DNA of 64,000 nt from Streptomyces sp. MST-110588 (GTDB taxonomy: Bacteria; Actinomycetota; Actinomycetes; Streptomycetales; Streptomycetaceae), in the NCBI RefSeq assembly GCF_022695595.1, contig NZ_CP074380.1:1178001-1242000 (forward strand), read 5' to 3'. Shown piece after piece: positions 41,008 through 64,000 of this stretch (position 1 is its first letter; the number at the start of each line of letters is the position of its first letter). The notes beneath the pieces were generated by a model. The model did no database searches. It was not told where the DNA came from and saw nothing but the letters and a program-made list of their open reading frames with translations. The translations under genes were made by a program, and so were the position numbers.

Positions 41008-41655
41008 TCAGGAAATGGGGTTCTTCGGTTCTGCGTGCGGTGTGGCCGGGGGTGCACAGGGGGTTTCGGCGGGTGGAGGCCGGGAGGATCGGGGTTGGTG
41101 GGTGGGGTCGTGGGGGTGGGGAGGGGCAGGGGGTGTGGGGTGGGGGGCTGGGAGGTTCAGGTTGGTGGCGGTCGATCGTTCGTCGTGGTCGATGCGGAGG
41201 ATCAGATCGTCCGGTCGGAGGGCCGTGGCCGGCTGTTGCCGCGTTGTCAGTTCGGCGAGAGCGAGCGCGCGGGTCTTGATGTGGAGGGCGGAGCCGTTCT
41301 CGCGTCCGGCGAGGGCGGCACACAGGAAACCGCGGACGGACAGCACCTCGCAGCCGAGCATGCTCAGCACGTTGTCCCTGCCCTCGCCCGGCGGCTGCTC
41401 ATCCCCGTGGAGCAGGGAGGCGAAGCGTCCGGGTACGGCGGGGGCGTACGCGCGCAGCGTCTCCTGATCCGCGCCGCAGTCCCGGCAGGGCACGGCCTTG
41501 AGAAAGAGGTGCGGGTGGCGGGGGCCGACGGGAGGGGCGGGCAGGAGCTGGGCGGCGGCCTCCCGGCGTGCCAGGCCGCGCAGCGCCGAGTCGACCGGCC
41601 CGGCCGACTGGGTGGGCCGATCCGGCCCGGGCGAGGGCAGTGAGTGGTCAGACAT
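41008..41655 (-). CDS. Hypothetical protein with Pro-rich tail, coupled to the QDD glycosyltransferase-like gene
   Basis: 215 aa from ATG 41655, overlapping the stop of the upstream gene by 8 bp, so translation is probably coupled. The first 155 residues look folded (ALRGLARREAAAQLL, HLFLKAVPCRDCGADQETLR, LGCEVLSVRGFLCAALAGRE); a Cys-Arg-Asp-Cys pair and two more Cys might bind metal. The last 55 residues are a Pro/His/Ala-rich disordered tail. I do not recognise the family. The tight linkage suggests that it works with the QDD protein. Confidence 0.65.
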   Translation of the reverse strand: MSDHSLPSPGPDRPTQSAGPVDSALRGLARREAAAQLLPAPPVGPRHPHLFLKAVPCRDCGADQETLRAYAPAVPGRFASLLHGDEQPPGEGRDNVLSMLGCEVLSVRGFLCAALAGRENGSALHIKTRALALAELTTRQQPATALRPDDLILRIDHDERSTATNLNLPAPHPTPPAPPHPHDPTHQPRSSRPPPAETPCAPPATPHAEPKNPIS

Positions 41656-42901
41656 AGGATTCCTGCCTCGGTTGGGGGCGTTCGGCGTACTCGGCCCGGT
41701 ACGGGGTCCGGTTCCGGGCGTACGAGATGCCTTGGTGTACCGCCGCCACGGCGATGTCGGTCAGGTGCCGGACGCCGTCGGCGCCGGGGGTGCCCGGACC
41801 GCGCGGCGGCAGGCCGGATCTGACCCAGGTGTCCAGACAGGCCCGGAGCATGGCCGGGGCGGCGGGGTGCGGCGGTACCTCGCCGTACGGCGGGTCGAAG
41901 AGGTGGGCCGCATCCGCTCCGAGGAGAAAACCGGCCGCCCAGGTCTCGAAGGCGAATTCGCGGTATGTGGCGTATGCGGCGTGGTTGGTGTGTTGGGCCT
42001 GTTCTCCCTGTTCTGTGCGCTTGGTGTGCGGCGGGAGCGTGGCATGCTGCCACGCTTCGGTGATCTCGGACGGGGCGATGCCGAGCAGTTCCAGCCAGTC
42101 CTGCCAGTACCAGCCGAACAAGTGGTCAATGGCCTCACCGGTCTCCGGCCGCTCGAACCGGATCAGACAGCCGGCCGGGGCGAGTTCGACCGAGAAATCC
42201 ACAGGAAATCGCCGGTGCGGGGGCGGGGCATGCCGGTTCGCGGGTATGTCGGTCCGCCACTGTCCGGGCACCGGTTCGCATGTTCCGGCGAACAGGACGG
42301 AATTCCTGGCGCCGTGGCTGTCGTTGCCGGCCAGGCTCTGGTCGCCGCCGTGTTCCAGCAGGGTGGGGAGCGGAGCCCATACCTCGATTCCCCGTTCGCG
42401 GCAGAAACGCGTCACCAGTTCGTCGTCATCGACGAAGGAGTCCGGGAAGCCGGCGAGGAACGCGGCCAGTTCTTCGGCGTGCCGGGCGGGGAGCACCAGT
42501 CCGAGCGTCGGGGTGTACTCCCTGGACGAGAGCCGCACCCAGGAACCGCCCGCCACGATCGCGCGGCGGGCCAGGTAGGAATTGCGCGGACTGTTCCAGT
42601 TCACGTACAGGGCGATGGCGCAGTCGGGGCGGCTCGTCACGGCCTCGTGAAGGAGTGCGGCGAATTGCGGGCAGGGCAGTACGTCGTCCTGGAGGACCAC
42701 GTGGTGGGTGGATCGCGCGTCCACGGCCGCCCAGGCCCTTTTCGCCGTACGCAAGGGGCTGGGCGGCCCGGTCGGGCGGGGGTCGCACACGACGTCGACA
42801 GCCAGCGGAGCACATCTCTCCACCAGGCCGGGAATCCGTTCTTTTCTTGACGGGTGGTGCATGACAGCCAGACCGATGCGCAGGGAACTGTCGCGTCCCA
42901 T
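41648..42901 (-). CDS. Glycosyltransferase-like protein with a QDD motif
   Basis: 417 aa from ATG 42901 (AAGGGGGA upstream). The N-terminal ~100 residues contain LRIGLAVMHHPSRKERIP, VVCDPRPTGPPSPLRTAKRA and THHVVLQDDVLP (QDD at 71-73). The order of a short GT-A-like core and an acidic DD motif suggests a nucleotide-sugar-dependent transferase, but the family is unclear. A second half (about 200-417) with HLFGWYWQDWLELLGI and AAHLFDPPYGEVPPHP is unique. The truncated gene at 63668 encodes a paralogue of the first part, so the window holds two members, probably of one cluster. Confidence 0.65.
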   Translation of the reverse strand: MGRDSSLRIGLAVMHHPSRKERIPGLVERCAPLAVDVVCDPRPTGPPSPLRTAKRAWAAVDARSTHHVVLQDDVLPCPQFAALLHEAVTSRPDCAIALYVNWNSPRNSYLARRAIVAGGSWVRLSSREYTPTLGLVLPARHAEELAAFLAGFPDSFVDDDELVTRFCRERGIEVWAPLPTLLEHGGDQSLAGNDSHGARNSVLFAGTCEPVPGQWRTDIPANRHAPPPHRRFPVDFSVELAPAGCLIRFERPETGEAIDHLFGWYWQDWLELLGIAPSEITEAWQHATLPPHTKRTEQGEQAQHTNHAAYATYREFAFETWAAGFLLGADAAHLFDPPYGEVPPHPAAPAMLRACLDTWVRSGLPPRGPGTPGADGVRHLTDIAVAAVHQGISYARNRTPYRAEYAERPQPRQESYV

Positions 42902-42965
42902 GAGCGTCCCCCTTCAATGGATGGTTTCGGGTGCTTCTGCTGATATGGGTGGTCGGCCGAATCAG

Positions 42966-43670
42966 TCATTCGGCGAACGAGAGGTGAAGAGGGGACCGGT
43001 ATCTGGAAACGTTACCGATGTGAGCGCCGGGGACGGCGACCGGGCCGGTGTCCATTTCCGTACGGACGGGGCGGACGCCCAGGAAACTCGGGATGCGTGT
43101 GACGCCGTAGCCGGCCGGTTCCGCCATGCCCACCATGACGGCTTCCATGCCGGCCTTCACGGCGGCTCGCACGCCGGAGTCGGCGTCCTCGAACACCAGG
43201 CACCCTGACGGCGCGACCCCCAGCATGTCCGCCGCCAGGAGAAAGCCTTCCGGGTCGGGTTTGCCCTGGTCGACGTCTTCCGCCGCCACCAGGACCGCGG
43301 GGACCGGAAAGCCGGCGGCGGCCAGTCGCCGCTCGACCACGTCGCGTTCCCCGGAGGTGACCAGGCCCCATCTGCCGGGCGGGAGTTCCCTCACCAGTTC
43401 CAGGCTGCCGGGGGTGGCCGCGATGCCTTCGACGTCGGTCAGCGAGCGCTCCCGCATCCACGCCAATTCACCCTCGACCGCATCGCGGGACACCCACTCG
43501 GCGATGATGTCACTGTCCCGGCGGCCGTGCCAGGAATCCAGCACTTCGTCTTCCGGCAGGCCGTTGCGGACCGCCCATAACCGGGTGTGCCGCTCGATGA
43601 CTCCCATCGAGTCGACCAGCGTTCCGTCGATGTCGAAGAGAATCGCATCGCCCCGCCAGGACCAACTCAC
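42966..43670 (-). CDS. HAD-family sugar-phosphatase-like protein
   Basis: 234 aa from GTG 43670 (GAAGGTG upstream); ATG 43688 is an alternative without a ribosome site. Subfamily IA HAD: AILFDIDGTLVDS with nucleophile Asp, cap domain, LVTSGERDVVERRL, GKPDPEGFLLAAD and VFEDADSGVRAAVKAGM. Close in pattern to phosphatases of hexose or deoxysugar phosphates (OtnP/Gph-like). It is divergent from the ROK regulator, so it may be under its control. Confidence 0.88.
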   Translation of the reverse strand: MSWSWRGDAILFDIDGTLVDSMGVIERHTRLWAVRNGLPEDEVLDSWHGRRDSDIIAEWVSRDAVEGELAWMRERSLTDVEGIAATPGSLELVRELPPGRWGLVTSGERDVVERRLAAAGFPVPAVLVAAEDVDQGKPDPEGFLLAADMLGVAPSGCLVFEDADSGVRAAVKAGMEAVMVGMAEPAGYGVTRIPSFLGVRPVRTEMDTGPVAVPGAHIGNVSRYRSPLHLSFAE

Positions 43671-43812
43671 AACAAACACCTTCTTCATGAGGGAATACCA
43701 GGAAACACGAAAGAACGGGGAAAATATTGCGACGGTGGGCACGGGCCCGTCCCACGTACCCGGCACCTGTAAAATGTCGTGACGTCACAGATGTCGTCGG
43801 GGAGGGTCCGCA
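43671..43812. promoter_or_regulatory. Divergent promoter region with TGACGTCA palindrome
   Basis: Between the HAD and ROK-regulator start codons. On the plus strand TAAAAT (43770-43775) is a good -10, followed by the perfect palindrome TGACGTCA (43780-43787), where a bound regulator would cover the transcription start. On the minus strand AATATTTTCC near 43726-43735 could be the HAD -10. Confidence 0.5.
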
Positions 43813-45020
43813 GTGCTTGAAGTCGCACCGGATACACCAGATAAGGCGTCACCCGTCACCGGAACACCGCAATTGGCGCGTTCCGTCAATGACCGGGCCG
43901 TTTTGAAGCTCTTTCTCGCGCACGGCTCCCTCAACGGGGCCCAGCTCGCGAAGCTGACCGGCCTTTCCAAGCCGACCGTCTACCAGTCGATCGCCCGGCT
44001 GTCGGCGGCCGGACTGGTCGAGCAGACCGGTGTCAGGAAGGACCTTCCGGGTCCCAATTCCAAGACGTACTGCATCGTCCCGAACCTCTCGCACGTGGCC
44101 GGTTTCCATCTGACGCCGCAGCTCGCGCGGGTGCGGATCGCGGACATCACCGGCACCGTGGTGGCGGACCGTTCGGTTCCGCTGCCCGACCGGTCGGCTG
44201 TGGCCCTGCGTACGGCGGCGGGCGACGCGTTCGACGAGGCCCTGCGGGGGCCGGTCTGCACGCCTCGCACATCGACCGCTCGGTCGCCGGGGTTCCCAGC
44301 GTGGTCGACCCGCACACCGGCGGGCTCTCGCGCACCCCCGGCCTGCCCGGCTGGGAGGAGCCCGGTGTGCGCACGGCCCTGGCCGAGCGCCTGGGCACGG
44401 ACATCTGCTTCCTCAACGACGCCAACCTCGCCGCCCACGCGGAGCTGCACCACGGAGCGGCCGTGGGCGTCGACAATTTCGTCCTCCTGTGGGTGGACGA
44501 GGGCGTGGGCGCCGCGATCGTCACCCAGGGCGTGGTGCACACGGGAGCCAGTGGCCAGGCGGGTGAGGTGTACGGGATCGCCATGCCCGGATCGCGTGGC
44601 GGGAAGCCGCTGCACTTCCATGAAACCGTGGACGCGGAAGCCCTGCTGGCGCTGGCCGCGGCCCATGGCATCACCGCGGATGACGCGGTGGCGGCGATGG
44701 GCGTCGCCCGCTCCGGCGCTGCCGGTGCCCCCGGTGTGCGGCTCCTGTCCGAGTACGCCGAGCGCCTGGCCGCCGGGCTGGCCGTCCTCGTCTCCGTACT
44801 GGACCCCGAACTGGTCGTGCTGTCCGGTGAGCTGCTCGCCGCCGGCGGCGAGCGGCTGCGGGCGCTGACCGGGGAAGCGCTGCCGCACCTGGTCCCGCGC
44901 CGACCGCGGCTGGCACTGTCCCACGTCCCCGATGACCCGGTGGTCGCGGGCGCGCTCTCCGTCGCCCTCCAGGACGTACGGTCCGCGGTCCTCCGGCTGG
45001 GGCATCCGGAGCACTGGTGA
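43813..45020 (+). pseudogene. ROK-family transcriptional regulator, apparent frameshift
   Basis: GTG 43813 has GGAGGG upstream. The first frame encodes an N-terminal MarR-like helix-turn-helix (AVLKLFLAHGSLNGAQLAKL, LSKPTVYQSIARLSAAGLVE) and the start of the ROK ATPase-fold domain. The frame changes at the five-G run 44246-44250; the second continues ASHIDRSVAGVPSVVDPHTG, DICFLNDANLAAHAE, NFVLLWVDEGVGAAIVTQG, and LVVLSGELLAAGGERLRAL to HW. One added G gives 402 aa. Regulators of this type (NagC/XylR) sense sugars or sugar phosphates, fitting the phosphatase, GH3 and glycosyltransferase genes around it. Both halves look intact. Confidence 0.85.
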
Positions 45021-45226: not shown

Positions 45227-46720
45227 TCACCGGTCCTGTCCCCCGTGCCCCGCGAGCAGTTCAGCCGCCGCCCTGGTGTTCACCGCGCCGGCACCGTAGG
45301 CGCGGATGGCCGCGCCGGCGGTGAGCGGTACGTCGTCCGGCATGCCGACCGCCACCACGATCGCGTCGGGCCGGGCCGCGAGCGCCTCGGCCAGCCACTC
45401 CCGCTGCCACGGGGTGCGGCAGGCGTCCCGTACGGCCAGGACAAGGGGGCGGCCCGCGGCCTCGGCGAGGATCTGTACCGGTCTGCGCCCGGCGTCCTGA
45501 ACCCGGACGGCCCGGGCGAGGAGGCCGAGTGCGGCCAGCGGCTCGGTCAGGCTCCAGTGGGCCGCGCCGGCCATCACGCCGGCCGGGGCACGGAGCTCGA
45601 CGACGGTGGCCGGCGCGGTGAGCCGGACGGGCCCGGTGGCGCGTACCGCGCGGCGCGCCGCCTCCATGCCGACCGCGCGACTCCCTTCCACGGTGGTGGG
45701 GCGGGCGGCCCAGGTGCGCAGGGCGTGGACGCGCTCCGCGGCGGCTTCCAGCCCGGCGGTGTCCAGGTCGCCGACGCGGATCGCCTCGGCGACGGCGGCC
45801 CGGACCGCCGCGCACCGCGCAGCGCCGTCACCCGGCCCCAGGAGCAGCAGGTCGGCGCCCGCCCGCAGGGTGGCGACCGCGGTGCGTGCCAGGTGACCGG
45901 GCCCCGAGCCGGCTTCCATCGCCACCGCCGTACTGATCAGCACGCCGTCGTAGCCGAGTTCGGTGCGCAGCAGGTCGTGCAGCAGACGGCGGCTGAGCGT
46001 CGCCGGGCGCCGGGGATCGAGCGCGGGGAACATCACGTGTGCGGCCATGATGCTGCGGGCTCCGGCCTCGATGGCGGCCAGGAACGGAGCCAGTTCGCGG
46101 GCGCGGAACGTGGCCTCGTCGCAGTCGACGACCGGCAGCGCATGGTGGGAATCGGTGACCGTGGCCCCGTGCCCGGGGAAATGCTTGGCGGACGCGGCCA
46201 CGCCGGCGCTCTGTAGCCCCCGGACGAAGGCCGCGCCGTGCCGGCTCACCTTCTCGGGGGTGGCGCCGAAGGACCGTACACCGATGACGGGATTCTCAGG
46301 GACGCTGTTGACGTCGACCGAAGGCGCCAGGTTGAGGTTGACGCCGGCGGCGGCCAGCTCGGCGCCGATCGAGCCGGCGAGCGTGGCGGTGAGATCCGGA
46401 TCATCGATCTCCCCGAGCGCGAGGTTGCCCGGGTAGGCGCTGCCGGTCGCGAGGTCCAGCCGGGTGATGTCGCCGCCTTCCTCGTCCAGCGCCACGAGGG
46501 CGTCGGGGCGGGCCGACCGTACGGAGCGGGCGATCTCCGCGATCTTCCCGGCCCCGGACCTGGACCCGGCCCCGGACCCGGCCCCGGACATGAGGTTGTC
46601 CGGGAAGATCACCACGCCCGCGAGGTCCTGCTCCAGGGCGTCGAGCACCCATGGAGGTGTCTGTCCACCGGTGAATCCGGGGAGCAGGCACGCGTTCACC
46701 AGCCGGTCGAGTTCAGTCAT
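45227..46720 (-). CDS. GH3-family (NagZ-like) protein lacking the usual nucleophile
   Basis: 497 aa from ATG 46720 behind GAGGAGG, overlapping the upstream Cof-type HAD gene by 8 bp. The TIM-barrel shows LAPSVDVN, AKHFPGHGATVTDSHHALP (178-196, including the DSH dyad of beta-N-acetylglucosaminidases) and IMAAHVMFPALD. Where GH3 enzymes have S-D-x-x-x-M with the Asp nucleophile, this protein has LISTAVAMEA, with Thr264 in place of Asp. Normal retaining hydrolysis is therefore doubtful; it might bind sugars or act by another mechanism. The C-terminal domain (about 360-497) is an alpha/beta sandwich-like part. Confidence 0.82.
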   Translation of the reverse strand: MTELDRLVNACLLPGFTGGQTPPWVLDALEQDLAGVVIFPDNLMSGAGSGAGSRSGAGKIAEIARSVRSARPDALVALDEEGGDITRLDLATGSAYPGNLALGEIDDPDLTATLAGSIGAELAAAGVNLNLAPSVDVNSVPENPVIGVRSFGATPEKVSRHGAAFVRGLQSAGVAASAKHFPGHGATVTDSHHALPVVDCDEATFRARELAPFLAAIEAGARSIMAAHVMFPALDPRRPATLSRRLLHDLLRTELGYDGVLISTAVAMEAGSGPGHLARTAVATLRAGADLLLLGPGDGAARCAAVRAAVAEAIRVGDLDTAGLEAAAERVHALRTWAARPTTVEGSRAVGMEAARRAVRATGPVRLTAPATVVELRAPAGVMAGAAHWSLTEPLAALGLLARAVRVQDAGRRPVQILAEAAGRPLVLAVRDACRTPWQREWLAEALAARPDAIVVAVGMPDDVPLTAGAAIRAYGAGAVNTRAAAELLAGHGGQDR

Positions 46721-47582
46721 GGTCCGCTGCCTCCTCGGAGAGGGACTCGGGAAGGATGTCGGGAAAGATCTCGGGAAAGATCTCCGGGAACAGCCGCTCG
46801 ACGGTCTGCGCGACGCCGTCCTCGTCGTTGGCGGGGACGATGTGGTCGACGGCGTCCAGCACCGCCGGGTGGGCGTTGGCGACTCCGTAGGACGTGCCGG
46901 CCCAGGCCAGCATCGGCAGGTCGTTGGGCATGTCGCCGAAGGCCGCCACATCGGACTGCCGTACGTCCAGGCGCGCCGCGAGGTCCGCGAGGGCGGAGGC
47001 CTTGCTCACTCCGCTCGCGATGGCCTCGACCAGCCGTTCGCCGTTGGAGTGGTAGACGGTGACGAGTCCGTCCATGGCGGGTGCGGCCAGGCGGACGAGT
47101 TCGTCGGCCGACAGCCGGGGGTGGCGGCCGATGAGTTTGGGTGCCGGGCGCGACCACAGGCGGTCCTCCGGCAGGCGTTGTACGGTCACGTCCACATCCC
47201 AGGCGCCCGGCTCGTACAGTTCGTCCCCGGCCAGGGTGTCGGCGTACTCGATCGCGAGTCCGATGCCGGGGGCCGCTGCACGCAGCCGCCGGGCCGCCTC
47301 CGCCAGGGCGGCGGGCTCGATGGCCCGTTCCGCGCCGACGGTCCGGGAGTGCATGTCGAACAGCAGCGCTCCGTTGGAGCAGATCGCGATTCCCTGGCTG
47401 CCGAAGGCCGCGGTGATGTCCGCCATCAGCCGTGGCGGTCTGCCGGTGACGAAGACGACGTGCGTCCCGGCCTTTTCGACGCGGGTCAGGGCCGTGACCG
47501 TACGGGCGGAGACCGTCTTGTCAGCGCGGACGATCGTGCCGTCCAGGTCGGTGGCGATCAGGGCCGGGGGAAGGACTCTCAT
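46713..47582 (-). CDS. Cof-type HAD phosphatase
   Basis: 289 aa. Subfamily IIB HAD: LIATDLDGTIV, VVFVTGRPPR, a large C2 cap, Lys in GVSKASALADL, and GDMPNDLPMLAWAG. These enzymes remove phosphate from sugar phosphates or related compounds. The C-terminus carries a short repeat FPEIFPEIFPDILPE. It overlaps the GH3-like gene by 8 bp, so translation is coupled. The upstream spacer (47583-47709) holds a 20-bp GTGGGAACGG-type direct repeat. Confidence 0.88.
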   Translation of the reverse strand: MRVLPPALIATDLDGTIVRADKTVSARTVTALTRVEKAGTHVVFVTGRPPRLMADITAAFGSQGIAICSNGALLFDMHSRTVGAERAIEPAALAEAARRLRAAAPGIGLAIEYADTLAGDELYEPGAWDVDVTVQRLPEDRLWSRPAPKLIGRHPRLSADELVRLAAPAMDGLVTVYHSNGERLVEAIASGVSKASALADLAARLDVRQSDVAAFGDMPNDLPMLAWAGTSYGVANAHPAVLDAVDHIVPANDEDGVAQTVERLFPEIFPEIFPDILPESLSEEAADHD

Positions 47583-47709: not shown

Positions 47710-48852
47710 TCACCGTGCCGTGGCGTGGGGGCCGTCCTGGATCGCCTCCGAGAGTTCGCGCAGGTGGCGCGCGGTCGCGGAGAGCGGGTGGCGCCTGGCG
47801 TTGGCGAGGCCGGCCGTACGCAGGTCCTCCAGCGCCGCGGGATCCTTGCGCAGCGTCAGCACACTGTCCACGAGGGTGTCCGGGAGGCCGTCCGCACCGA
47901 TCCGTGCCGCGGATCCGCCCAGGACCTCGACCAGGCCCGACACCGGCTGGTAGAGCACGGGCAGGCCGCGGGCCTGTGCTTCCACGGCGACCAGTCCGAA
48001 GGCCTCGACCCGGTTGGAGGGGACGACGAGGAGATCGTGGTTGCCGAACTCCTCCCAGAGTTCCGGACGGCTCAGCCAGCCCAGGTAGCGCGGGTCCGCG
48101 CCGGGCATCCGCCGGGTCAGCGCGGCGAATTCGGCGGGCGGTGCCGCCACCGTGAGCCGTACGCCCTCCGCGCCGGCCAGGGACCGGATCAGTTCGTCCG
48201 CGCCCTTCTCCGCGGTGAGCCGGCCCGCGTACAGGACGCGGAACTCCCCGTCGTCGGGGCGGCGTTCCTTGAGCGGGGCGGTCAGCAGCTCGTCGGGGAC
48301 GCCCCAGGGCAGGCGGATCACCCGGCGCGGGTCGGCGGGGGCCAGCCGGGTCAGCAGGTCGGCCATGGCGCTGGTGGGGACGACGATGGCCTGCGCCGCT
48401 CGGACGGCTTGGTGCAGCACGTCGGCCTGGGTGGGGTGGTCGGCGGCGAACAGCAGGTCGGTGCCGTGGACCAGGGCCAGCCGCGGGTGGTCGGGGAAGG
48501 CGCGCAGCAGGGCCGGGGTGGCACCGAAGGCGAGGTGCTGGAGGTGGAGGACTGCGTGGTCCGCCGCGCGGAACCGCCGTCGGATCGCGGCGGCCAGGTC
48601 GGTGACATAGGACCAGAAGCCGGGGCCGTCGAGCTGTTTTCCCGGTACGGAGAGCAGGGCGGGGCCGTAGGGGGTGGCGGGAGCGCCGGGGGTGGCAGGG
48701 CTGTGCGGGCCGGCATCCGGGCCGTCCGGTGGTGCCAGCATGAAGACGCCGCCGGGAAGGTGCGGAGCCGGCCCGAGGTAGAGGTCGTGGAGGAGTTCGA
48801 CGCTGCCGCCCGGGCTGCCCACCGGCAGGTCGACTCCGGTCAGGGTGTTCAC
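47710..48852 (-). CDS. Glycosyltransferase family 4
   Basis: 380 aa from GTG 48852, overlapping the stop of the preceding Dcd-like gene by 4 bp (GTGA). GT-B fold: N-terminal acceptor domain (1-about 190, LHLQHLAFGATPALLRAF, LVHGTDLLFA), then FRVLYAGRLTAEKGADELIR for the donor domain and the E-x7-E motif in NRVEAFGLVAVEAQARGLPV. It transfers a sugar from a nucleotide donor with retention; donor and acceptor are unknown. Last gene of a tightly overlapping set: N-oxygenase, two Dcd-like proteins, GT4. Confidence 0.9.
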   Translation of the reverse strand: MNTLTGVDLPVGSPGGSVELLHDLYLGPAPHLPGGVFMLAPPDGPDAGPHSPATPGAPATPYGPALLSVPGKQLDGPGFWSYVTDLAAAIRRRFRAADHAVLHLQHLAFGATPALLRAFPDHPRLALVHGTDLLFAADHPTQADVLHQAVRAAQAIVVPTSAMADLLTRLAPADPRRVIRLPWGVPDELLTAPLKERRPDDGEFRVLYAGRLTAEKGADELIRSLAGAEGVRLTVAAPPAEFAALTRRMPGADPRYLGWLSRPELWEEFGNHDLLVVPSNRVEAFGLVAVEAQARGLPVLYQPVSGLVEVLGGSAARIGADGLPDTLVDSVLTLRKDPAALEDLRTAGLANARRHPLSATARHLRELSEAIQDGPHATAR

Positions 48853-49373
48853 ACCAGCTCCTCGTAAAGACGTGAGATGTCGATACCGCCGGTGCTTGTG
48901 TATTTCTGGCCCAGGTGCTGGTAGCTGGACTGCGATCCGAAGACGTCGAGGAATACGATCTTTCCGAACGTCATGTACGGGTAGATCCGGACGGTTCGCG
49001 CCACCCGGATCTCCAAGGTCCAGCGAATGGCGTGCCCTACATGCCCCAGAGGGGCGGAGACATGCACCCATATTCCGAGTCCGCCCACGGTGTGGTCACC
49101 GTTGATCATCTGCGCGTACCGCTCGGAATGTGTACGCTCGTGCGTCACACCCAAATACAGCACACCGGGCCGCAGAACCATCCCTTCGGCCGGGATCACC
49201 TTTTCCGTGAAAGGCGTCGGCGCCGCCGCGTCGAGATCGGTGTCGCACACCCGGATGCGGTCGCCGAGCCGCCAGTCGTAGGCGTTGGGCGAGATCCTGC
49301 CGGATTCGAAGGGCTCGATGACGATGTCGCCGTCGGCCACCGCCGAGGCGATCTTCTCCCCGGTGAGAATCAT
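48849..49373 (-). CDS. dCTP deaminase/dUTPase-fold protein, first paralogue (Ser/Arg motif lost)
   Basis: 174 aa from ATG 49373, overlapping the previous gene by 4 bp (ATGA). The fold is clear: MILTGEKIASAVADGDIVIE, RISPNAYDWRLGD, LYLGVTHE, GLGIWVHVSAPLG, WTLEIRVARTVRIYPYMTFG. The catalytic Glu of dCTP deaminase (E. coli Glu138) is present as Glu121 in WTLE. The (R)SSxxR motif that binds the triphosphate and base (E. coli Ser111, Arg115) has become HTVGG (94-98). Alone it should not work as a normal dCTP deaminase; it may form a mixed trimer with its partner or bind another nucleotide. Confidence 0.85.
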   Translation of the reverse strand: MILTGEKIASAVADGDIVIEPFESGRISPNAYDWRLGDRIRVCDTDLDAAAPTPFTEKVIPAEGMVLRPGVLYLGVTHERTHSERYAQMINGDHTVGGLGIWVHVSAPLGHVGHAIRWTLEIRVARTVRIYPYMTFGKIVFLDVFGSQSSYQHLGQKYTSTGGIDISRLYEELV

Positions 49374-53043: not shown

Positions 53044-53165
53044 CGTCTCGTTCACGTGCCCGACGCTAGTCCTCCGGGCGCCACCGGGCAACGCCTTCCG
53101 GGCGCCGGATGCCCGCCGGACCGTTGCGCACATTCCGTATCCGACCGCCGAAAGCCGGGGTTCGC

Positions 53166-56305: not shown

Positions 56306-57568
56306 GTGACGAGCGGGACCAGCCGCGGTGGTACGCGGCCCGCCGACACCGCCGTGCCGGATCCCGGGGCCCCGTTGTGGGAGCGCGAGTTCGCACTCTT
56401 CTTCATCGCCCGGAGCGTGGCCAAGTTCGGTGACGGCATGGTGCCTGTCGCCCTGTCGGCCGGGCTGGTGCTGGCGGGGCGCGGGGCCACCTCCGTATCG
56501 TTCGCGCTGGGCGCCTGGACCGCCTGCTTCGGCGGCTTCGTGCTCTTCGGCGGGGTGCTGGCCGACCGCTTCTCGCCCCGCCGGATGATGGTCTTCGCCG
56601 ATCTGATGAGGCTTGCCGCCATCGCGGTGCTCGCGGTGGCGTTCGCCGCCGGCGACCCGGCACTGTGGCTGGTGTACGCGCTGAGCGCGCTCAGCGGCGT
56701 CGGTGCCGCGCTGTTCCAGCCCGGTATAGCCAGCACGATCCCGGCGATCGTCGCCGATGTGCAGCGTGCCAATGCCGTCATAAGGGTCTCGGAGTCGCTG
56801 ATGACCATGGCGGGGCCGGCCGCCGCCGGAGCACTCGTCGGCGTGATCGGTCCGGCCGGCCTGTACGGGGTCAACGCGGCCACCTTCGGGGTGAGCGGGC
56901 TGTGCCTGGCGCTGATGCGCCGGGGGCCCGCCGCCCTGGGCAGCCGCACGCAGTCGATGCTGGGCGACCTCGTCGAGGGCTGGCGGGAGTTCCGGTCCCG
57001 CGGCTGGCTGTGGGGCGTCATCGCGGTCTGGACGGGGTATTCGCTCCTGGTGCTGGGGCCGATGGTCCCGCTGCAGACCGTACTGATCACCGAGGAGCAC
57101 GGCGCCACGGCGCTGGGCGTGATGATGGCGGTGTTCGGCGCGGGCAACGCGGCCGGCGCGCTGCTGGCGATGCGGATACGCCCCCGCCGCCCGCTGGCCT
57201 CCGGCGCCGTGGCGCTGTCCGGTGTGTCCGTCCATGTCTTCGCGCTGGCGGTGGGCGCGCCGCCGCCGCTGCTCGGCGCGGCGTTCTTCGCCGGGGGTGC
57301 GGCGGTGGCGTACTGGGTCGTGATGTGGTCCACCGCGGTCCAGACGCATCTGCCGCCGCGGGTGCTCAACCGGCTGCACGCCTATGACGTCGCCGGGTCC
57401 GTGCTCACCCTCGCCGCGGGCCGGACGCTGGCGGGCCCGGCGGCCGATTGGCTGTCCCCGCGCGCCCTCCTGCTGGGCGGTGCGGTGGTCAACGTCCTGG
57501 TCATCGCGGTGCTGCTGCTCGCGCCCGCGATCCGCCGGCTGCCGCGCGCGCAGGCGTCCGGAAGGTGA
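56306..57568 (+). CDS. MFS transporter, enterobactin-exporter (EntS)-like
   Basis: About 420 aa from GTG 56306, 31 bp past the MurC-like stop, so one operon. Twelve membrane helices: ALFFIARSVAKFGDGMVPVA, GGVLADRFSPRRMM (MFS motif A), ALFQPGIASTIPAIV, LLVLGPMVPLQTVLI, VGAPPPLLGAAFFAGGAAVA. This pattern belongs to EntS/MFS_3 exporters often found in natural-product clusters. It probably exports the product and gives self-protection. The start is uncertain because the ribosome site is weak. Confidence 0.86.
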   Translation: MTSGTSRGGTRPADTAVPDPGAPLWEREFALFFIARSVAKFGDGMVPVALSAGLVLAGRGATSVSFALGAWTACFGGFVLFGGVLADRFSPRRMMVFADLMRLAAIAVLAVAFAAGDPALWLVYALSALSGVGAALFQPGIASTIPAIVADVQRANAVIRVSESLMTMAGPAAAGALVGVIGPAGLYGVNAATFGVSGLCLALMRRGPAALGSRTQSMLGDLVEGWREFRSRGWLWGVIAVWTGYSLLVLGPMVPLQTVLITEEHGATALGVMMAVFGAGNAAGALLAMRIRPRRPLASGAVALSGVSVHVFALAVGAPPPLLGAAFFAGGAAVAYWVVMWSTAVQTHLPPRVLNRLHAYDVAGSVLTLAAGRTLAGPAADWLSPRALLLGGAVVNVLVIAVLLLAPAIRRLPRAQASGR

Positions 57569-58088: not shown

Positions 58089-60116
58089 ATGTCCCTGATG
58101 TCATCGTCGACAGACGCCGGTACGCCGCCCGGCCGGCCGGCCATCGGTGACGGCGGCCCTGACGCGCTGCCGGCGTACGGGCGCGGCACGCCGCTGCCCC
58201 GTCCAGAGCCCGCGCCGGTGCACGAACTGGTGGCCCGCTTCGCCCGTACGACACCGGCCCGCACCGCCGTACGCGCCGGGAGCAGCGCGATCACCTACCG
58301 GGAACTGGACCTGTGGGCCGGGCGGATCGCGGCCCGGCTCACCGCGGCGGGGGTGTGCCGCGGCGACCGGGTCGGCATCCTGGTCAGGCCCTCGACCACC
58401 ATGGTCGCCGCGGTGCTGGGCACGTTGCGGGCCCAGGCGGCATACGTACCGGTGGACCTCGCGCACCCGGACCGGCGGATCGCCGACGTCCTCGCCGACG
58501 CGCGAGTCACCGTGGCCCTGGCCGACGAGACGGCCCGCCCCCGGCTGCGCGGTGCCGCGGTGCCTCTCGTACGGGCCGAGGAGACCGCGGAAGAGGACGA
58601 CGACCCCGGCCACCGGGCCGCCGCCGCGCCCGCGGACGGCGCGTCCCCGGCCCCCGTCGGCGCCGCCGACCCCGCCTACCTCATCTACACCTCGGGCAGC
58701 ACCGGCGAGCCGAAGGGCGTCCTGGTCGAGCACGGGCAACTGACCGCCTCGACCCACGCCCGGCGTCTGGTGTACCCGGGAGTGCCGGTGTTCCTGCTGG
58801 TCTCACCGCTCGCCTTCGACTCCTCCGTGGCCGGCCTGTGGGGGACGCTCACCGCCGGGGGCCGGCTGATCGTGGCCTCGCCCGAGGAAGTACGCGACCC
58901 GGAGCGGCTGGTGGGGCTCGTGGAGCGGCACCGGGTGACGCGGCTGCTGTGCGTGCCCCCGCTCTACGGCGTGCTGCTCGACGCCGCCGAGCGGCTCGGC
59001 ATGGAACGGCTGCGCACCCTGGAGTCCGTGACCGTGGCCGGGGAACCGCTGCCGCGGACCCTGATGGAGCGCCATTTCGCGCTGCATCCCCGGCAGGTCG
59101 CCCTGGTCAACGAGTACGGGCCCACCGAGGCCACCGTATGGGCCAGTTACCGCCGCTACGACACTCCGGGCCCGGTGTCCATCGGCGGACCCGTCCCCGG
59201 CACCCGGCTCCACGTGCTGGACGAGAACCTCCGGCCGGTGCCGCCCGGCACGGAGGGCGAGCTGTTCATCGGCGGTTCCGGGGTCGCACGCGGCTACTTC
59301 GGCCGCCCGGAAGCCACGGCCCAAGCCTTCCTGGACGATCCGTACGCGGACGAGGACGGCGCCCGCATGTACCGTACGGGCGACCGCGTGCGCTGGAACG
59401 CCGAAGGCACGCTGGACTACCTGGGCCGCCTCGATCACCAGGTCAAGATCCGCGGACACCGGGTGGAACTCGGCGCCGTGGAGGAAGAGCTGCGGGCCCT
59501 GGAGGGCGTCCGCGACGCCGTCGTCCTGCCCGACGGCTCCGGGGCCCGGCTGACCGGCTTCGTCCTCGCCCCGGTCGGCACCGACACCGAGTCCCTGCGC
59601 CGGCGCCTCGGCGAGAGGCTGCCGGCGGCCATGGTCCCCAGCCGGATCGATGTGCTCGACGGTTTCCCGGTCACCGTCAACGGCAAGGTGGACCGCGCCG
59701 GGCTGCGCCGTCGCGCGGACCTTGCGGCGACGGCCCCGGCCGTCCGTACGGACGGCGGCCCCGCCCCGGCGAACGGCGCCCCCGCCACCGACCGGGGGAA
59801 CATCACCGCGCGGGTGGCCGCCGCCTGGGCGGAAGTCCTGACCACCCGCGACATCCCCCAGGACGTCAACTTCTTCGACCTCGGCGGCCACTCGCTCACC
59901 ATGTTCCAGCTCCAGGACGCCCTGGAGCGCCACACCGGGTCACGGCCGTCGGTCGTCTCGCTCTTCCGGCACACCACCGTGCTGGCCCAGGCCGCCCTGA
60001 TCAGCGGCGAGGGCGGTACGCAGGGAGCGCCGCGCGACCGGCGGCAGGCCGCCGCCCGGCAAGCCCAGGCGGTACGCGCCAGGCGCCGCCGTGAGACCCA
60101 GGAGCCCGCACAGTGA
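58089..60116 (+). CDS. Stand-alone NRPS adenylation-PCP didomain protein
   Basis: 675 aa from ATG 58089 (CGGAG upstream). Adenylation core motifs: YLIYTSGSTGEPKGVLVEH (A3), NEYGPTEATVW (A5), GELFIGGSGVARGY (A6), YRTGDRVRWN (A7), DHQVKIRGHRVELGAVEEEL (A8), NGKVDRAGL (A10, Lys). The PCP carries FFDLGGHSLTMFQLQ with the pantetheine Ser. There is no condensation domain. By eye the ten-residue code reads D-S-A-C-T-A-E-V-W-K, which I cannot match to a known amino acid. It probably loads one amino acid as a thioester for later transfer. Confidence 0.92.
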   Translation: MSLMSSSTDAGTPPGRPAIGDGGPDALPAYGRGTPLPRPEPAPVHELVARFARTTPARTAVRAGSSAITYRELDLWAGRIAARLTAAGVCRGDRVGILVRPSTTMVAAVLGTLRAQAAYVPVDLAHPDRRIADVLADARVTVALADETARPRLRGAAVPLVRAEETAEEDDDPGHRAAAAPADGASPAPVGAADPAYLIYTSGSTGEPKGVLVEHGQLTASTHARRLVYPGVPVFLLVSPLAFDSSVAGLWGTLTAGGRLIVASPEEVRDPERLVGLVERHRVTRLLCVPPLYGVLLDAAERLGMERLRTLESVTVAGEPLPRTLMERHFALHPRQVALVNEYGPTEATVWASYRRYDTPGPVSIGGPVPGTRLHVLDENLRPVPPGTEGELFIGGSGVARGYFGRPEATAQAFLDDPYADEDGARMYRTGDRVRWNAEGTLDYLGRLDHQVKIRGHRVELGAVEEELRALEGVRDAVVLPDGSGARLTGFVLAPVGTDTESLRRRLGERLPAAMVPSRIDVLDGFPVTVNGKVDRAGLRRRADLAATAPAVRTDGGPAPANGAPATDRGNITARVAAAWAEVLTTRDIPQDVNFFDLGGHSLTMFQLQDALERHTGSRPSVVSLFRHTTVLAQAALISGEGGTQGAPRDRRQAAARQAQAVRARRRRETQEPAQ

Positions 60117-60946
60117 CATCACACCGAACTCCCTCCGGCCAAGCGGCACCGCGGGAAGCGGCTGCGCACGAGATGACACCGCATGACGTCATGCCGCACG
60201 ATGTCATGCCGCGCCCCGATCCCACGGTCTGGTTCCAGCGCCTCACCGCGCGGCCCGGCGGCCGGCAGCGGCTCATCTGCTTCCCGCACGCCGGCGGATC
60301 GGCCCCCTTCTTCCGTGACTGGGGGGAGCGGCTGCCCGGTACCGAGGTGCACAGCGTCCGCTACCCGGGGCGCGGCGAGCGGCTCGCCGAGCCTTCCCCC
60401 ACCGACCTGGGCGAGCTGGGGCGGGAGATCGCCGAGGCGCTCACCCCTCTGGCGGACCTGCCGCTCGCCCTGTTCGGGCACAGCATGGGCGCGGTGGTGG
60501 CCCTGGAAACGGCCCGGGCCCTGGAGGAGCGCGGCATCCGCCCCGCCCACCTGTTCGCCTCCGGTTCGCGCAACGCGCCGCTGCCGGCCCCCGAGGAGCT
60601 GGACACGGAGGACGACGCCGACGCCGTGTGCGAACGGCTGGTCGCCCTGGGGGGCACCGACGCCGAAATGGCGGCGGACCCCGCCTTCCGGGAGCTGGTC
60701 CTCCCCTACATCCTCAGTGACAGCCGCATGTTCACCTCGTACGCCCATCGGCCCGGACCGGTCCTGCGGTGTCCGGTGACGACGATCGTCGGGGACCGGG
60801 ACGAGGACGCCGACCGCCGGCCCTGGCCGGAGCTGACCGACGGCGGCTTCTGCGAGCACATCGTCCGGGGCGATCACTTCTACCTGATCCAGGAACCGCC
60901 CTTCGCGCTGCTGCGCACGGCCCTGGACGCCACGCCGATCCCGTAG
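60113..60946 (+). CDS. Type II thioesterase
   Basis: 277 aa from GTG 60113, overlapping the NRPS stop by 4 bp (GTGA). Alpha/beta hydrolase with ICFPHAGGSAPFF, SVRYPGRGERLAE, GHSMG (122-126, Ser124), GDRDEDA and catalytic His in GDHFYLI. Such enzymes free PCPs from wrong or stalled acyl groups, or release the product. The first 38 residues are an odd tail with a repeated TPHDVMPHDVMP segment (15-bp DNA repeat). Confidence 0.92.
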   Translation: MTSHRTPSGQAAPREAAAHEMTPHDVMPHDVMPRPDPTVWFQRLTARPGGRQRLICFPHAGGSAPFFRDWGERLPGTEVHSVRYPGRGERLAEPSPTDLGELGREIAEALTPLADLPLALFGHSMGAVVALETARALEERGIRPAHLFASGSRNAPLPAPEELDTEDDADAVCERLVALGGTDAEMAADPAFRELVLPYILSDSRMFTSYAHRPGPVLRCPVTTIVGDRDEDADRRPWPELTDGGFCEHIVRGDHFYLIQEPPFALLRTALDATPIP

Positions 60947-61004: not shown

Positions 61005-62111
61005 ATGACCAGCAGGCCCACCACCGATACGTCCCCTACCGATACGCCCGTCACCGGGAGACCCATGACCGGCGCATACGTGACCGGCGCCGGACGAAGC
61101 GACGGGGACGGCGAGAGGAGTGAGGGGGGTGAGGCCGTCCCGGCCGGCCCGCCGCCGCCCTTGGACCGCGAGCTGGCGGAGCCGCTGCGCGCCATCCTCG
61201 CCGGCCTGCCGGGACCGCTGACGTTGGAACTCGTGGCAGACCGCCGGGCCCGTACGGCCGCCGGCTCCCTGTCGGACGACGCGATCCGCCGCGGCGGGGC
61301 CTTCGAGCTGGAGGAGCGAGTGGTACCGGGGGCCGCCGGCTCCCCCGGGCTCCCGCTGCTCATCTGCCGGCCGACAGCCACGCCCGGCCCGCACCCGGTC
61401 ATCTACAACACCCACGGCGGCGGCATGGTGGCGGGCGGCCCCCGCACCGCGGAGCTGTCGGGCGAGCTGGACCGGGCGCAGGAGCTGCAACTGGCCGTGG
61501 TGGCCGTGGACTACCGGCTCGCCCCCGAACACCCCGACCCGGCACCGGTGGAGGACTGCTACGCCGGTCTGCGCTGGGTGGCGGCGCACGCCGCCGGGCT
61601 GGGCCTGGACGGGGAACGGATCGTCATCAGCGGCAACAGCGCGGGCGGCTGCCTGGCCGCCGGCGTCTCGCTGCTCGCCCGGGACCGGGGCGGCCCCCGG
61701 CTACTGGGCCAGATGCTCCAGTGCCCCATGCTCGACGACCGGTGCGAGACGCCCTCGATGGCCCAGATGGCGCGGGTCGGGATGTGGGACGGGCTCTCCA
61801 ACCGGGCGGGCTGGACCGCCCTGCTGGGTGACCGGCGGGGCACCGGCGAGGTGTCCTGCTACACGGCCCCTGGCCGGGCCACCGACCTGGCGGGCCTGCC
61901 GCCCGCGTTCATCGACGTCGGTTCCGTCGAGGCCCTGCGGGACGAGGCCATCGCCTTCGCGACCCGTATCTGGCAGGCCGGCGGCGAGGCCGAACTGCAC
62001 GTCTGGTCAGGCGCCTTCCACAGCTTCGACGAATGGGTGCCGCAGGCCGTGGTCTCGCGCGGCGCGCAGCGCGCGCGGGCCGACTGGCTGCGCCGGCTGC
62101 TGCACCGCTGA
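61005..62111 (+). CDS. HSL-family alpha/beta hydrolase
   Basis: 368 aa from ATG 61005 (AGGAGAGTC upstream). Hormone-sensitive-lipase family: oxyanion motif THGGGMVAGG (136-145), AVDYRLAPEHPDPAP, nucleophile ISGNSAGG (208-215, Ser212), acid in FIDVGSVEALRDE and His in SGAFHSFDEW. It hydrolyses or transfers an ester. Residues 1-50 are a low-complexity Thr/Pro/Gly tail. In the cluster it could release or trim an acyl group, but the substrate is unknown. Confidence 0.9.
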   Translation: MTSRPTTDTSPTDTPVTGRPMTGAYVTGAGRSDGDGERSEGGEAVPAGPPPPLDRELAEPLRAILAGLPGPLTLELVADRRARTAAGSLSDDAIRRGGAFELEERVVPGAAGSPGLPLLICRPTATPGPHPVIYNTHGGGMVAGGPRTAELSGELDRAQELQLAVVAVDYRLAPEHPDPAPVEDCYAGLRWVAAHAAGLGLDGERIVISGNSAGGCLAAGVSLLARDRGGPRLLGQMLQCPMLDDRCETPSMAQMARVGMWDGLSNRAGWTALLGDRRGTGEVSCYTAPGRATDLAGLPPAFIDVGSVEALRDEAIAFATRIWQAGGEAELHVWSGAFHSFDEWVPQAVVSRGAQRARADWLRRLLHR

Positions 62112-62280: not shown

Positions 62281-62322
62281 GATCCCGTACGAGACGTCAG
62301 TGATCCCGTACGTGACGTCAGT
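62281..62322. repeat. Two 21-bp tandem repeats upstream of the GT2 gene
   Basis: GATCCCGTACGWGACGTCAGT occurs twice in tandem, differing at one base, with degenerate GTGATCC units continuing to about 62335. Each copy contains GACGTC, and the second the palindrome TGACGTCA that also occurs before the ROK gene (43780-43787). This may be a binding site. Confidence 0.6.
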
Positions 62323-62384
62323 GATCCGAGTGATTCCAGTGGCTTGAGTGGTCCAAGTGATCAGAGTGACCTCAAGGAGCAGCA

Positions 62385-63569
62385 GTGAGCGACGACCTGA
62401 AGCTGAGCATCGTGATCCCGTACAAGCAGCGTCTGGACAACATCCGGGCCGTCTTCACCTCGCTGGTGGACCAGACGATGGACCGCGCACGGTTCGAAGT
62501 CGTGGTCGGCGTGATGGAGTACGCCCCGGAATACGTCGCGCTGTGCCGGGAGTTCACCGACCGGCTGAGCATCGTCTCGGTGCTCACCACCGGGGAGTGG
62601 AACACCAGCCGGGCCCGGAACCTGGGCATCCGGCACGCGTCCGGCCAGATCGTCATGGTGCTCGACGCGGATGTCGTGCTCGCCCCCGTGGCGCTGGAGA
62701 ACCTCTACGAACGGCACTTCCGGCACGGGCAGAACGTCTGCGTCCTCGGGCAGGTCTTCGGGTACGACGAGGTCGTCGGCTCCGACGTGGAGACGGTCCA
62801 GGTCCAGCCGTACGACCACTACCGCAAGCTCCTGGCGGACCTGGAGACGGCGGACCGCGCGCGACTGGACCCCCGCTGGTCGGCGGAGTACGCCCCGGCG
62901 CTGGCCCGCTTCCCGTGGGCCTTCGCCCGCACCGGACTGATGGCCCTGCCGACGGCGACGGTCCGCGCGCACGGCCTGCTGCTGGACGAGGACTTCCCCG
63001 GGTGGGGGCCCGAGGACCAGGAATGGGGCCTGCGGATCTCCCGGACCGGCACGCCGCTGGTGCTGGGTCAGGACGTGTACGGGCTGCACCTGCCGCACCG
63101 GCGGGACTTCGCGGCCCAGGACCGGTCGGCGACCCTGAGCAACCGCTACTACCTGGCCAAGTGGCCGCGTCTGGACCTGGAACTGGCCCTGGCCTTCGGC
63201 GGCTGGCTGGAGGCGGACCGGCTCTGCCCGGACGCCGAACGCGAACTGGCCCGGGCGTCCGGGGGCCGCTCGCTGGGAGTGGTACGGGCCACCGTCGGCG
63301 AGCGGTCCGTCCTGTTCGTCGGGGCGGTTCTCGACGCGTCGGGCGAGGCCGCCGACCCCGAGGTCAGGGCGCTGCTCGGCGGCGGGGCCCGCGCCGAGGT
63401 GCTGCCGCTGGCCGGCTTCGCCCTGCCCTTCGCGGACCGCAGCGTGGACGAGTGCCGCGTCCTGGCGCCGGTCGCACGGCTGAGCGAGCGGTACCGGGAC
63501 GCCGTCCACCGTGAGGCCGAGCGCGTCGCGTGCCGGCTCCTGGTGCCGGCCGGCGCCGCTGACCGCTGA
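62385..63569 (+). CDS. Glycosyltransferase family 2
   Basis: 394 aa from GTG 62385 (AAGGAGCAGCA upstream). GT-A fold: LKLSIVIPYKQRLDNIRAVF, WNTSRARNLGIRHASGQIVM, metal-binding VLDADV (DxD at 94-96) and GWGPEDQEWGLR (206-217), the acceptor-site ED motif seen in galactosaminyl- and galactosyltransferase-like GT2 and GT27 enzymes. The C-terminal ~110 residues are a separate part without recognised motifs. It transfers a sugar to an unknown acceptor. It is followed by the QDD-motif paralogue. Confidence 0.9.
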   Translation: MSDDLKLSIVIPYKQRLDNIRAVFTSLVDQTMDRARFEVVVGVMEYAPEYVALCREFTDRLSIVSVLTTGEWNTSRARNLGIRHASGQIVMVLDADVVLAPVALENLYERHFRHGQNVCVLGQVFGYDEVVGSDVETVQVQPYDHYRKLLADLETADRARLDPRWSAEYAPALARFPWAFARTGLMALPTATVRAHGLLLDEDFPGWGPEDQEWGLRISRTGTPLVLGQDVYGLHLPHRRDFAAQDRSATLSNRYYLAKWPRLDLELALAFGGWLEADRLCPDAERELARASGGRSLGVVRATVGERSVLFVGAVLDASGEAADPEVRALLGGGARAEVLPLAGFALPFADRSVDECRVLAPVARLSERYRDAVHREAERVACRLLVPAGAADR

Positions 63570-63667
63570 CCGCTGACCGGGGTCGGTGCCCGCCCCGACC
63601 GGGCCCCGTACTCCCCTGCCCGGGATTCCGCACGCCGTTCCCTCATCACCCGCCTCCGGAGCTGACT

Positions 63668-64000
63668 GTGACCTCATCTACCTCGATTGCCTCTGCGACC
63701 TCCCTTCCCTCTCCGATCTCGACAACCTCGCCGACCTCGCCGACTTCACCTTCCTTCCGGCTCTCCGCCGCTGTGATGTCCCACCCCAGACGGGCCGAGG
63801 CGGCCCACGCACTGGCCGGCCGCTTCCCGGAGCTCGACATGCGGGTCGTGCTCGACCCGGAGCCCGACGGCCCGCCGTCCGCACTGCGCAGCGCACGTCT
63901 GGCCTGGTCCGCGGTGGCCCCCGGCGCCACCCACCACCTGGTGATCCAGGACGACGCGCTGCCGGTCGAGGACTTCCCCGGCCGGCTCGACGCGCTGGTG
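63668..64000 (+). CDS. QDD-motif glycosyltransferase-like protein (partial, runs off the right edge)
   Basis: 111 codons from GTG 63668 (GGAG 6 nt upstream) are in the window. After a Ser/Thr/Pro-rich N-tail (1-30) the sequence LSAAVMSHPRRAEAAHALAG, VVLDPEPDGPPSALRSARLA, THHLVIQDDALPVEDF (QDD at 94-96) aligns clearly with residues 10-80 of the protein at 41648-42901. Both probably belong to one little-studied GT-A-like family. The two copies sit at opposite ends of the cluster. Confidence 0.75.
   Translation, partial: MTSSTSIASATSLPSPISTTSPTSPTSPSFRLSAAVMSHPRRAEAAHALAGRFPELDMRVVLDPEPDGPPSALRSARLAWSAVAPGATHHLVIQDDALPVEDFPGRLDALV

Follow-up and report, generated by a model that had tools for sequence, protein, structure and literature searches.

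A stretch of 64,000 nucleotides from Streptomyces sp. MST-110588 (the window; positions 1178001-1242000 of a 7.9 Mb genome in a single contig) carries genes that form a real, conserved actinobacterial biosynthetic gene cluster. Among them are two adjacent genes for dCTP-deaminase-like proteins, Dcd2 and Dcd1, and directly downstream a gene for a GT4 glycosyltransferase; Dcd pair and GT4 together are a widespread core of gene cassettes. The residues that a dCTP deaminase unites in one chain are divided between the two Dcd proteins, which probably constitute one heteromeric enzyme with one working interface per Dcd2/Dcd1 contact. In our estimation there is an even chance that the conserved cluster directs the synthesis of an undescribed, multiply glycosylated product of the nonribosomal peptide synthetase/polyketide synthase (NRPS/PKS) type, with this heteromer at its core.

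A cluster shared between genera

Whether the genes stand together beyond chance was judged by comparison across genera, and each identity quoted refers to the best tblastn piece. In Nonomuraea endophytica, 31 kb (440,853-471,858) hold counterparts of 17 cluster genes at 34-78% identity (35 queries, with QDD protein 1 entered twice). Those encoded in the window are listed in Table 1; the others are the PKS g050 (63%), the NRPS g051 (65%), the cytochrome P450 (P450) g052 (63%), the TauD protein g053 (65%) and g057 (49%). All five belong to the run g047-g057, which occupies 64.9-84.0 kb in window coordinates, beyond the right edge. Because genes of this run have their N. endophytica counterparts in the same single stretch, the cluster continues to the right of the window and spans about 41.6-84 kb in window coordinates, with about 20 kb lying outside. 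The ABC genes g047 and g048, also beyond the edge, gave only partial matches (34-41%). Searched against the whole N. endophytica genome, g051 was 67% identical over its full length at the cluster site, and its 17 other matches reached 32-41%.

Two Actinomadura have, on one stretch of roughly 58 kb apiece, counterparts of the CE4 deacetylase, the GT2 glycosyltransferase, g051, the AurF-type N-oxygenase, Dcd2, Dcd1, GT4 and the HIT protein at 51-77% identity (8 of 33 queries), g051 matching over its whole length at 63-64%, as well as g057 at 41-43% and QDD protein 1 at about 41-44%. Over the Actinomadura and Nonomuraea versions, CE4 counterparts are 58-60% and GT2 counterparts 51-53% identical. 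In A. terrae, another adenylation-peptidyl carrier protein (A-PCP; 63%) comes from a contig of 2,162,430 bases, equal in length to the cluster-bearing contig. Cluster genes are partly together also in Amycolatopsis and other Streptomyces. S. prunicolor has homologues of the N-oxygenase (69%), the MurC-like ligase (72%) and the A-PCP (70%), each with a contig listed as 98,545 bases, which is strong but indirect evidence that they share one contig. In S. canus, the MurC-like (72%) and A-PCP (71%) homologues are both listed with a contig of 10,733,048 bases, a length that the AurF homologue (70%) does not share.

The order AurF-Dcd-Dcd-GT4 recurs in 11 of 25 AurF loci from named genomes, spread over Streptomyces, Amycolatopsis, Planotetraspora, Actinomadura and Nonomuraea; in the remaining 14, no match to Dcd was obtained within the stretch examined (tblastn, E 1e-5). 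A preliminary description of the window had proposed one biosynthetic cluster that might run past the right edge, and had named independent scattering of the homologues as one refutation. Both proposals are borne out by genes that stay together in Nonomuraea and Actinomadura and do so partly in Amycolatopsis and other Streptomyces as well, and by the NRPS, PKS, P450 and TauD counterparts beyond the edge, and for most of the genes the comparison across genera runs counter to scattering.

The Dcd pair and its cassettes

A profile built from the Dcd1 alignment matched 64 of 392 genomes of the genus (E 1e-25), of which 61 gave at least two matches, and 6 of 396 genomes across the phylum, four of these weakly (91-107 bits). 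We typed 83 loci, namely 12 and 59 fetched stretches, 11 named loci and the window. The AurF-Dcd2-Dcd1-GT4 arrangement (type II) was found in 16 of them, a set that counts one locus of Streptomyces pinistramenti twice (L065 and L009). By far the most frequent was type I (MurA-like - UshA-like - Dcd2 - Dcd1 - GT4 - beta-lactamase-like; 46 loci, e.g. L046-L050), with GT4 called in 43 and an XRE regulator and a flavoprotein gene in 42 each. Type III (TauD - Dcd - Dcd - PIG-L - WbqC - GT4 - ProRS-like) comprises six loci (L055, L102-L106) and type IV seven (L051-L053, L099, L100, L113, L114). In the latter, one Dcd is joined in a single protein to a PPDK-type ATP-binding domain and another is encoded separately, along with a phosphodiesterase, a P-loop kinase-like protein and, in six of seven cases, DUF6001. 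The remainder are one type V locus, three others and four without a called Dcd.

Overall, GT4 lies immediately downstream in 56 of the 67 adjacent Dcd pairs. The preliminary description had pointed to the MurC-like ligase plus the Dcd pair as the hallmark. This does not hold, as the core is Dcd pair plus GT4, and the search of the Nonomuraea and Actinomadura cluster stretches (tblastn, E 1e-10) yielded no MurC-like ligase. Dcd2-Dcd1-GT4 is a marker with which a widespread, apparently undescribed set of clusters can be found in Streptomyces and relatives.

Besides Dcd pair and GT4, 12 of the 16 type II loci contain a phosphatase-type gene, either Cof or HAD, and all 46 type I and all six type III loci contain a UshA-like one; among the type II loci, L013 and L015 have a phosphatase-type gene under a looser grouping only, and L011 and L018 showed none. 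Of the 16 type II loci, 8 have a CE4 deacetylase and 15 a HIT gene, and a PIG-L deacetylase occurs in 6 of 6 type III loci. Partners of nucleotide or UDP-sugar type include the MurA-like, UshA-like, PIG-L, HIT and kinase-like proteins; a cytidine-deaminase match was weak (E 0.004, below its cutoff).

A catalytic set divided between two chains

Housekeeping Dcd, represented by three copies, carries Ser-Ser-x-Gly-Arg and a Glu, which we take to be parts of motifs II and III, respectively, and the genome of the window retains a separate housekeeping Dcd with SSGR and the Glu. Neither window protein has Ser, Arg and Glu within one chain: Dcd2 (g036) keeps SSGR and has Met in place of Glu, and Dcd1 (g035) reads HTGG and keeps the Glu. 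The same division was found in 59 of 67 adjacent pairs: the upstream chain reads Ser-Ser-Gly-Arg and carries Met instead of Glu, and the downstream chain has the Glu and lacks the first Ser and the Arg. Exactly one Glu per pair is present in all 67 (66 distinct), and the upstream member invariably keeps Ser and Arg. Since related loci are not independent, these counts reflect conservation rather than repeated origin. Other housekeeping residues are shared out likewise in the 59 pairs: S102, S103, R106, D119, Q148 and Q172 are among those kept solely by Dcd2, and D33, R41, A54, A95, H112 and E129 are kept solely by Dcd1.

Nineteen Dcd genes lie outside the called adjacent pairs, 14 of them in type IV loci and five single (L057, L075, L080, L117, L121). 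Each of the seven type IV loci has a fused Dcd that reads Ser-Ser-Ala-Arg and carries Gln, and a free Dcd that keeps the Glu and lacks the Arg. Direct reading of places where no gene had been called added L075 and L080 as pairs of the split kind; L121_05 reads as a housekeeping Dcd, and L119 and L120 hold fragments. Types I/II, III and IV are divergent from one another.

Dcd2 and Dcd1 belong to the superfamily of dCTP deaminase and bifunctional dCTP deaminase-dUTPase (PDB 2qxx, 4a6a), from which they differ in being two unequal chains with a divided catalytic set rather than a single chain. In trimeric dUTPases, the motifs bearing Ser/Arg and Glu are contributed by neighbouring subunits (PMC12524310), and an excerpt of a further source describes a common trimeric core of dUTPase and DCD with the sites at intersubunit clefts (PMC4827122). 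Taken together with the split motifs, this is why we read the pair as a probable heteromer; that two degenerate deaminase homologues form one working site is a defined and testable biochemical claim. A role as an anti-phage dCTP deaminase was considered and dropped, as neither Dcd matches a PADLOC model at E 0.001; in the PADLOC scan of the locus, the HIT protein alone was matched (ThsC model, 55 bits).

The AurF-type N-oxygenase

The window N-oxygenase scores 282.8 bits against AurF of known structure (PDB 3chh), and seven positions that we take from AurF to be its diiron ligands (E102, E137, H140, E197, H224, E228, H231) are invariant in 27 aligned family sequences. It thus has the diiron family and the ligand positions in common with AurF of the aureothin pathway. 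However, its score of 324.6 bits against NF045603 (AurF proper, 4-aminobenzoate N-oxygenase) lies below the cutoff of 620, so it is not AurF itself, and it differs from aureothin AurF in its neighbours, which are Dcd, GT4 and HIT. Its substrate could be an exocyclic base amine, an amino sugar or an arylamine.

AurF-family genes also occur in other surroundings. Two further ones stand side by side on opposite strands at 2436748-2438955 of the same genome (L001 and L003; 322.6 and 56 bits). Nine Dcd-less AurF loci (L022-L029, L032) have a different conserved set, with aminotransferases in all nine and a gene matching ATP-grasp in all but L022; ketopantoate-hydroxymethyltransferase-like and 3-hydroxyisobutyrate-dehydrogenase-like genes were assigned in this neighbourhood by Pfam in L023 only. 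In L016, L021, L031, L064 and L071, AurF-Dcd-Dcd-GT4 follows genes that group with those of L016 for nitroreductase-family, P450 and O-methyltransferase proteins (Pfam assignments from L016 only), and a YcaO gene was called in L016, L021 and L031.

A specialised MurC-like ligase and other duplicated enzymes

The MurC-like protein exceeds the cutoff for MurC, the UDP-N-acetylmuramate-L-alanine ligase (Table 1), and scores 406.9 bits against PDB 7bva, yet it is only 50% identical to the other MurC of the genome, encoded at 1.65 Mb, whose presence rules out that the window copy is the sole one. A MurC match at E 1e-60 was obtained in 40 of 41 genomes, this one included, and two matches were obtained only here and in one other genome (G010); among 392 genus genomes, only this one has a match to the MurC-like protein at E 1e-140. 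Its nearest database relatives are from S. canus and S. prunicolor (72% each).

In place of the otherwise conserved motifs GTHGK, HHPTE and HLYSR, the protein has GTVGK (Val for the P-loop His), NFPTK and SLFSS, and on this account it is a specialised member of its family, for biosynthesis or for resistance. Among 120 listed matches, counted individually in the first 16 rows and via the commonest strings in the rest, the P-loop His is present in at least 78, HHPTE in at least 77 and HLYSR in at least 78. S-L-F-[ST]-S occurs in four matches including the protein itself (P0121-P0123, P0126), and P-L-F-[ST]-[ST] in three (P0125, P0127, P0135).

Some other cassettes likewise contain a further copy of an essential enzyme. 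Both Amycolatopsis genomes with a gene for GlfT2 (galactofuranosyltransferase) inside the cassette (L010, L012) have a second GlfT2, and all six type III genomes have a second ProRS-like copy, the copies being 66-68% and 34-37% identical to the query copy. Duplicated MurC, GlfT2 and ProRS-like genes beside cassettes suggest self-resistance or recruitment, and they offer hypotheses on product targets. As a separate observation, the Actinomadura locus L013 encodes an EF-G-like protein resembling Otr(A) (735 bits, cutoff 900), to which the L015 copy is 94% identical.

A proposed pathway

Our best guess for the product is a nucleotide-derived, glycosylated amino compound, because phosphatases, deacetylases and partners of nucleotide or UDP-sugar type stand beside the Dcd pair and GT4. 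From the gene content we infer the substrates and the order of the steps as follows. The core would make or use a nucleotide-derived unit: at a shared interface, to which Dcd2 would supply the phosphate-binding Ser/Arg and Dcd1 the catalytic Glu, the pair would have a pyrimidine nucleotide or a nucleotide sugar as its substrate. GT4 would then transfer a sugar, probably an N-acetylhexosamine, a chemistry to which the presence of GH3 and CE4 proteins points, and phosphatase and CE4 deacetylase may unmask the transferred sugar. The AurF-type enzyme would oxidise an amine, A-PCP and type II thioesterase (TEII), NRPS and PKS could attach an acyl or peptide part, and further sugars may come from GT2 and the QDD proteins. 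Deacetylation, N-oxygenation, ligation and glycosylation of an amino sugar or nucleotide, as outlined in the preliminary description, is compatible with this gene content. Extended to the cassettes at large, we see a slightly less than even chance that a pathway family, present in about one-sixth of the sampled genus genomes, combines an obligate heteromeric half-site dCTP-deaminase-like enzyme with a dedicated glycosyltransferase and in this way produces nucleotide-derived sugar units of a new class; to these, different clusters would attach N-oxidation, NRPS/PKS-type parts or parts typical of ribosomally synthesised and post-translationally modified peptides, some of the clusters standing next to a duplicated essential enzyme.

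Known pathways resemble parts of this scheme. The nikkomycin/polyoxin pathway has a stand-alone A-PCP with a thioesterase and a NikO-type enolpyruvyl transferase; A-PCP and TEII are present in the window cluster and a MurA-like enolpyruvyl transferase in the related type I cassette. However, the type I enzyme scores 162 bits against MurA, to which it is closer, and 87 bits against NikO, and the window cluster has no called gene of this kind. In mycothiol and bacillithiol synthesis, a GT4 enzyme acts first and a deacetylase follows, which recalls GT4 with CE4 in the window or with PIG-L in type III and goes along with weak MshA and BshA matches. The window GT4, however, scores only 39.9 against MshA (cutoff 462.5), and we know of no counterpart of the Dcd pair and AurF in those pathways. 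A role of TauD g053 as a LipL-type UMP dioxygenase was not supported, its best PDB relatives being of the TauD and alkylsulfatase AtsK types, though a LipL sequence was not part of the comparison.

Alternative readings

Several observations weigh against the proposed heteromer and against a cluster of this full extent. In 8 of 67 pairs (type III, L054, L107), the upstream chain is complete (Ser, Arg, Glu) and the downstream one has Gln, and direct reading placed the adjacent pair of L056 and the pair of L101, 3.5 kb apart, in this second kind. As one chain is complete there, the half-site argument fails for these eight pairs. Dcd proteins occur without GT4 in type IV and type V loci, and they could be binders or regulators; a single-chain model of Dcd1 was poor (predicted local distance difference test, pLDDT, 52.4) and was not used. 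As for the extent, the N. endophytica stretch gave no match at E 1e-10 to the HAD, ROK, GH3, Cof, MFS a, MFS b or MurC-like genes, which may for this reason be accessories or neighbours, nor to g027, g028, g049, g054, g055, g056 or the spurious call g046. The Actinomadura stretches match the A-PCP at only 36-37% and the PKS at only 30%, and at the same threshold they have no match to TEII, HSL, P450 or TauD.

Rather than being a pathway enzyme, the Dcd pair may protect or regulate the pathway as a sensor of nucleotides, as an inactive decoy or as a scaffold; this might be thought from the lack of a full catalytic set in either chain alone in 59 of the 67 pairs and from the phage dUTPases that are described as signalling molecules in an excerpt of PMC5593958. 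We find this rather improbable, since the losses are complementary and constant, and plain decay would hardly preserve such a pattern over 66 distinct loci and the PPDK-fused form. Somewhat less improbable, and still unlikely, is that the MurC-like ligase duplicates a target enzyme for self-resistance, the product being an inhibitor of peptidoglycan synthesis, and that the duplicated essential enzymes of other cassettes serve the same end. The second MurC, GlfT2 and ProRS-like copies fit this, but the motif changes fit an altered substrate equally well, and the Nonomuraea and Actinomadura versions of the cluster do without the ligase as far as the tblastn search found.

That two unrelated neighbours are involved, a sugar or amino-sugar operon (41-53 kb) next to an independent NRPS/PKS cluster (53-84 kb), might be read from the opposite strands of the halves and from Amycolatopsis L010 and L012, where the left half lacks a close A-PCP or TEII within 20.9 kb (the A-PCP match of L012 is 37%). 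Yet the halves are intermingled inside 31 kb of N. endophytica and partly in Actinomadura, and the S. prunicolor homologues of AurF, MurC-like ligase and A-PCP are on contigs equally long; this division is largely refuted and very improbable. Finally, the cluster could already be known under other gene names, to which, as with the sensor or decoy, we give a small probability: the literature was checked by term searches of open papers only, and those on the gene combination gave either no paper or, among the titles listed, none that fits, which is weak evidence of absence. The single conserved cluster with a Dcd2/Dcd1 heteromer at its core is the reading we retain.

Gene content of the window

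Families were assigned by Pfam and NCBIfam profile scans of open reading frame (ORF) translations, and gene calls and start codons come from an in-house scorer, which overlooked the HIT gene and produced the spurious call g046. All gene types listed in the preliminary description are present (Table 1).

Table 1. Features of the cluster within the window; identity is that of the N. endophytica counterpart.
Feature	Position	Strand	Basis	Identity
QDD protein 1, probable GT-A-fold glycosyltransferase	41648-42901	-	model and Foldseek	44%
HAD phosphatase	42966-43766	-	PF00702, 72.5 bits	
GH3 glycosidase, NagZ/beta-N-acetylglucosaminidase-like (absent from the preliminary description)	45227-46720	-	PF00933, 228 bits	
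Cof-type HAD sugar-phosphatase-like protein	46713-47582	-	TIGR00099, 138.8 bits (cutoff 137)	
GT4 glycosyltransferase, cassette core	47710-48852	-	PF00534	60%
Dcd1, dCTP-deaminase-like	48849-49373	-	PF22769; TIGR02274, 62.1 bits (under cutoff 92.8)	73%
Dcd2, dCTP-deaminase-like	49370-49897	-	TIGR02274, 99.7 bits (over cutoff 92.8)	76%
AurF-type diiron N-oxygenase	49894-50898	-	PF11583, 129.1 bits	68%
CE4 polysaccharide deacetylase	51014-52072	-	PF01522, 124.7 bits	60%
HIT-family nucleotide-binding protein	52540-53055	-	PF01230, 77.7 bits	78%
MFS transporter a	53337-54521 (start uncertain; ORF from 53109)	+	PF07690	
MurC-like ligase, divergent second copy	54853-56274	+	TIGR01082, 419.3 bits (cutoff 335.1)	
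MFS transporter b	56306-57568	+	PF07690	
Stand-alone NRPS A-PCP didomain	58089-60116	+	PF00501, PF00550	62%
Type II thioesterase (TEII)	60173-60946	+	PF00975, 146.8 bits	63%
HSL-family esterase	61065-62111	+	PF07859	77%
GT2 glycosyltransferase	62385-63569	+	PF00535	53%
QDD protein 2	63668-64000 (past window edge; open frame to ~65089)	+		34%

Neither QDD protein has a Pfam match at gathering score. The AlphaFold2 model of QDD protein 1 (pLDDT 64.9; residues 1-180 mostly >70) matches GT-A glycosyltransferases, its best Foldseek match in the PDB being N-acetylglucosaminyltransferase I (E 1.2e-5, template modelling score 0.28 by query length), and the QDD proteins are for this reason probably glycosyltransferases. 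The GH3 protein scores 182 bits against NF003740, under the cutoff of 207, and its top PDB match is a GH3 beta-N-acetylglucosaminidase; the gene is present in 7 of 16 type II loci and the Cof-type gene in 6 of 16. The HAD phosphatase groups with HAD genes from other AurF-type loci at 33-35% identity, and copies of MFS transporter b adjoin AurF at 46-47% identity in L017, L019 and L020. An impression, gained by eye, that the substrate of the A domain is vaguely Tyr-like was set aside as unsupported.

Position 41008, with which the preliminary description begins, is the end coordinate of a 215-aa ORF (41008-41655) without a Pfam family. It was rejected as a conserved cluster member: a resemblance seen by eye to L013_08, which adjoins AurF in Actinomadura, came to 18.9 bits in BLASTP (E 0.066), and tblastn at E 1e-10 gave no match in either of the Actinomadura stretches or in Nonomuraea. 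A ROK-family gene at 43813-45020 on the plus strand, likewise absent from the preliminary description, looks broken, because its reading needs two different frames (43864-44157 and 44301-45020). To the left of the cluster, a short secreted protein encoded at 38117-38350 on the minus strand, which we presume to be chaplin-like, adjoins an M20 peptidase gene (38504-39838).

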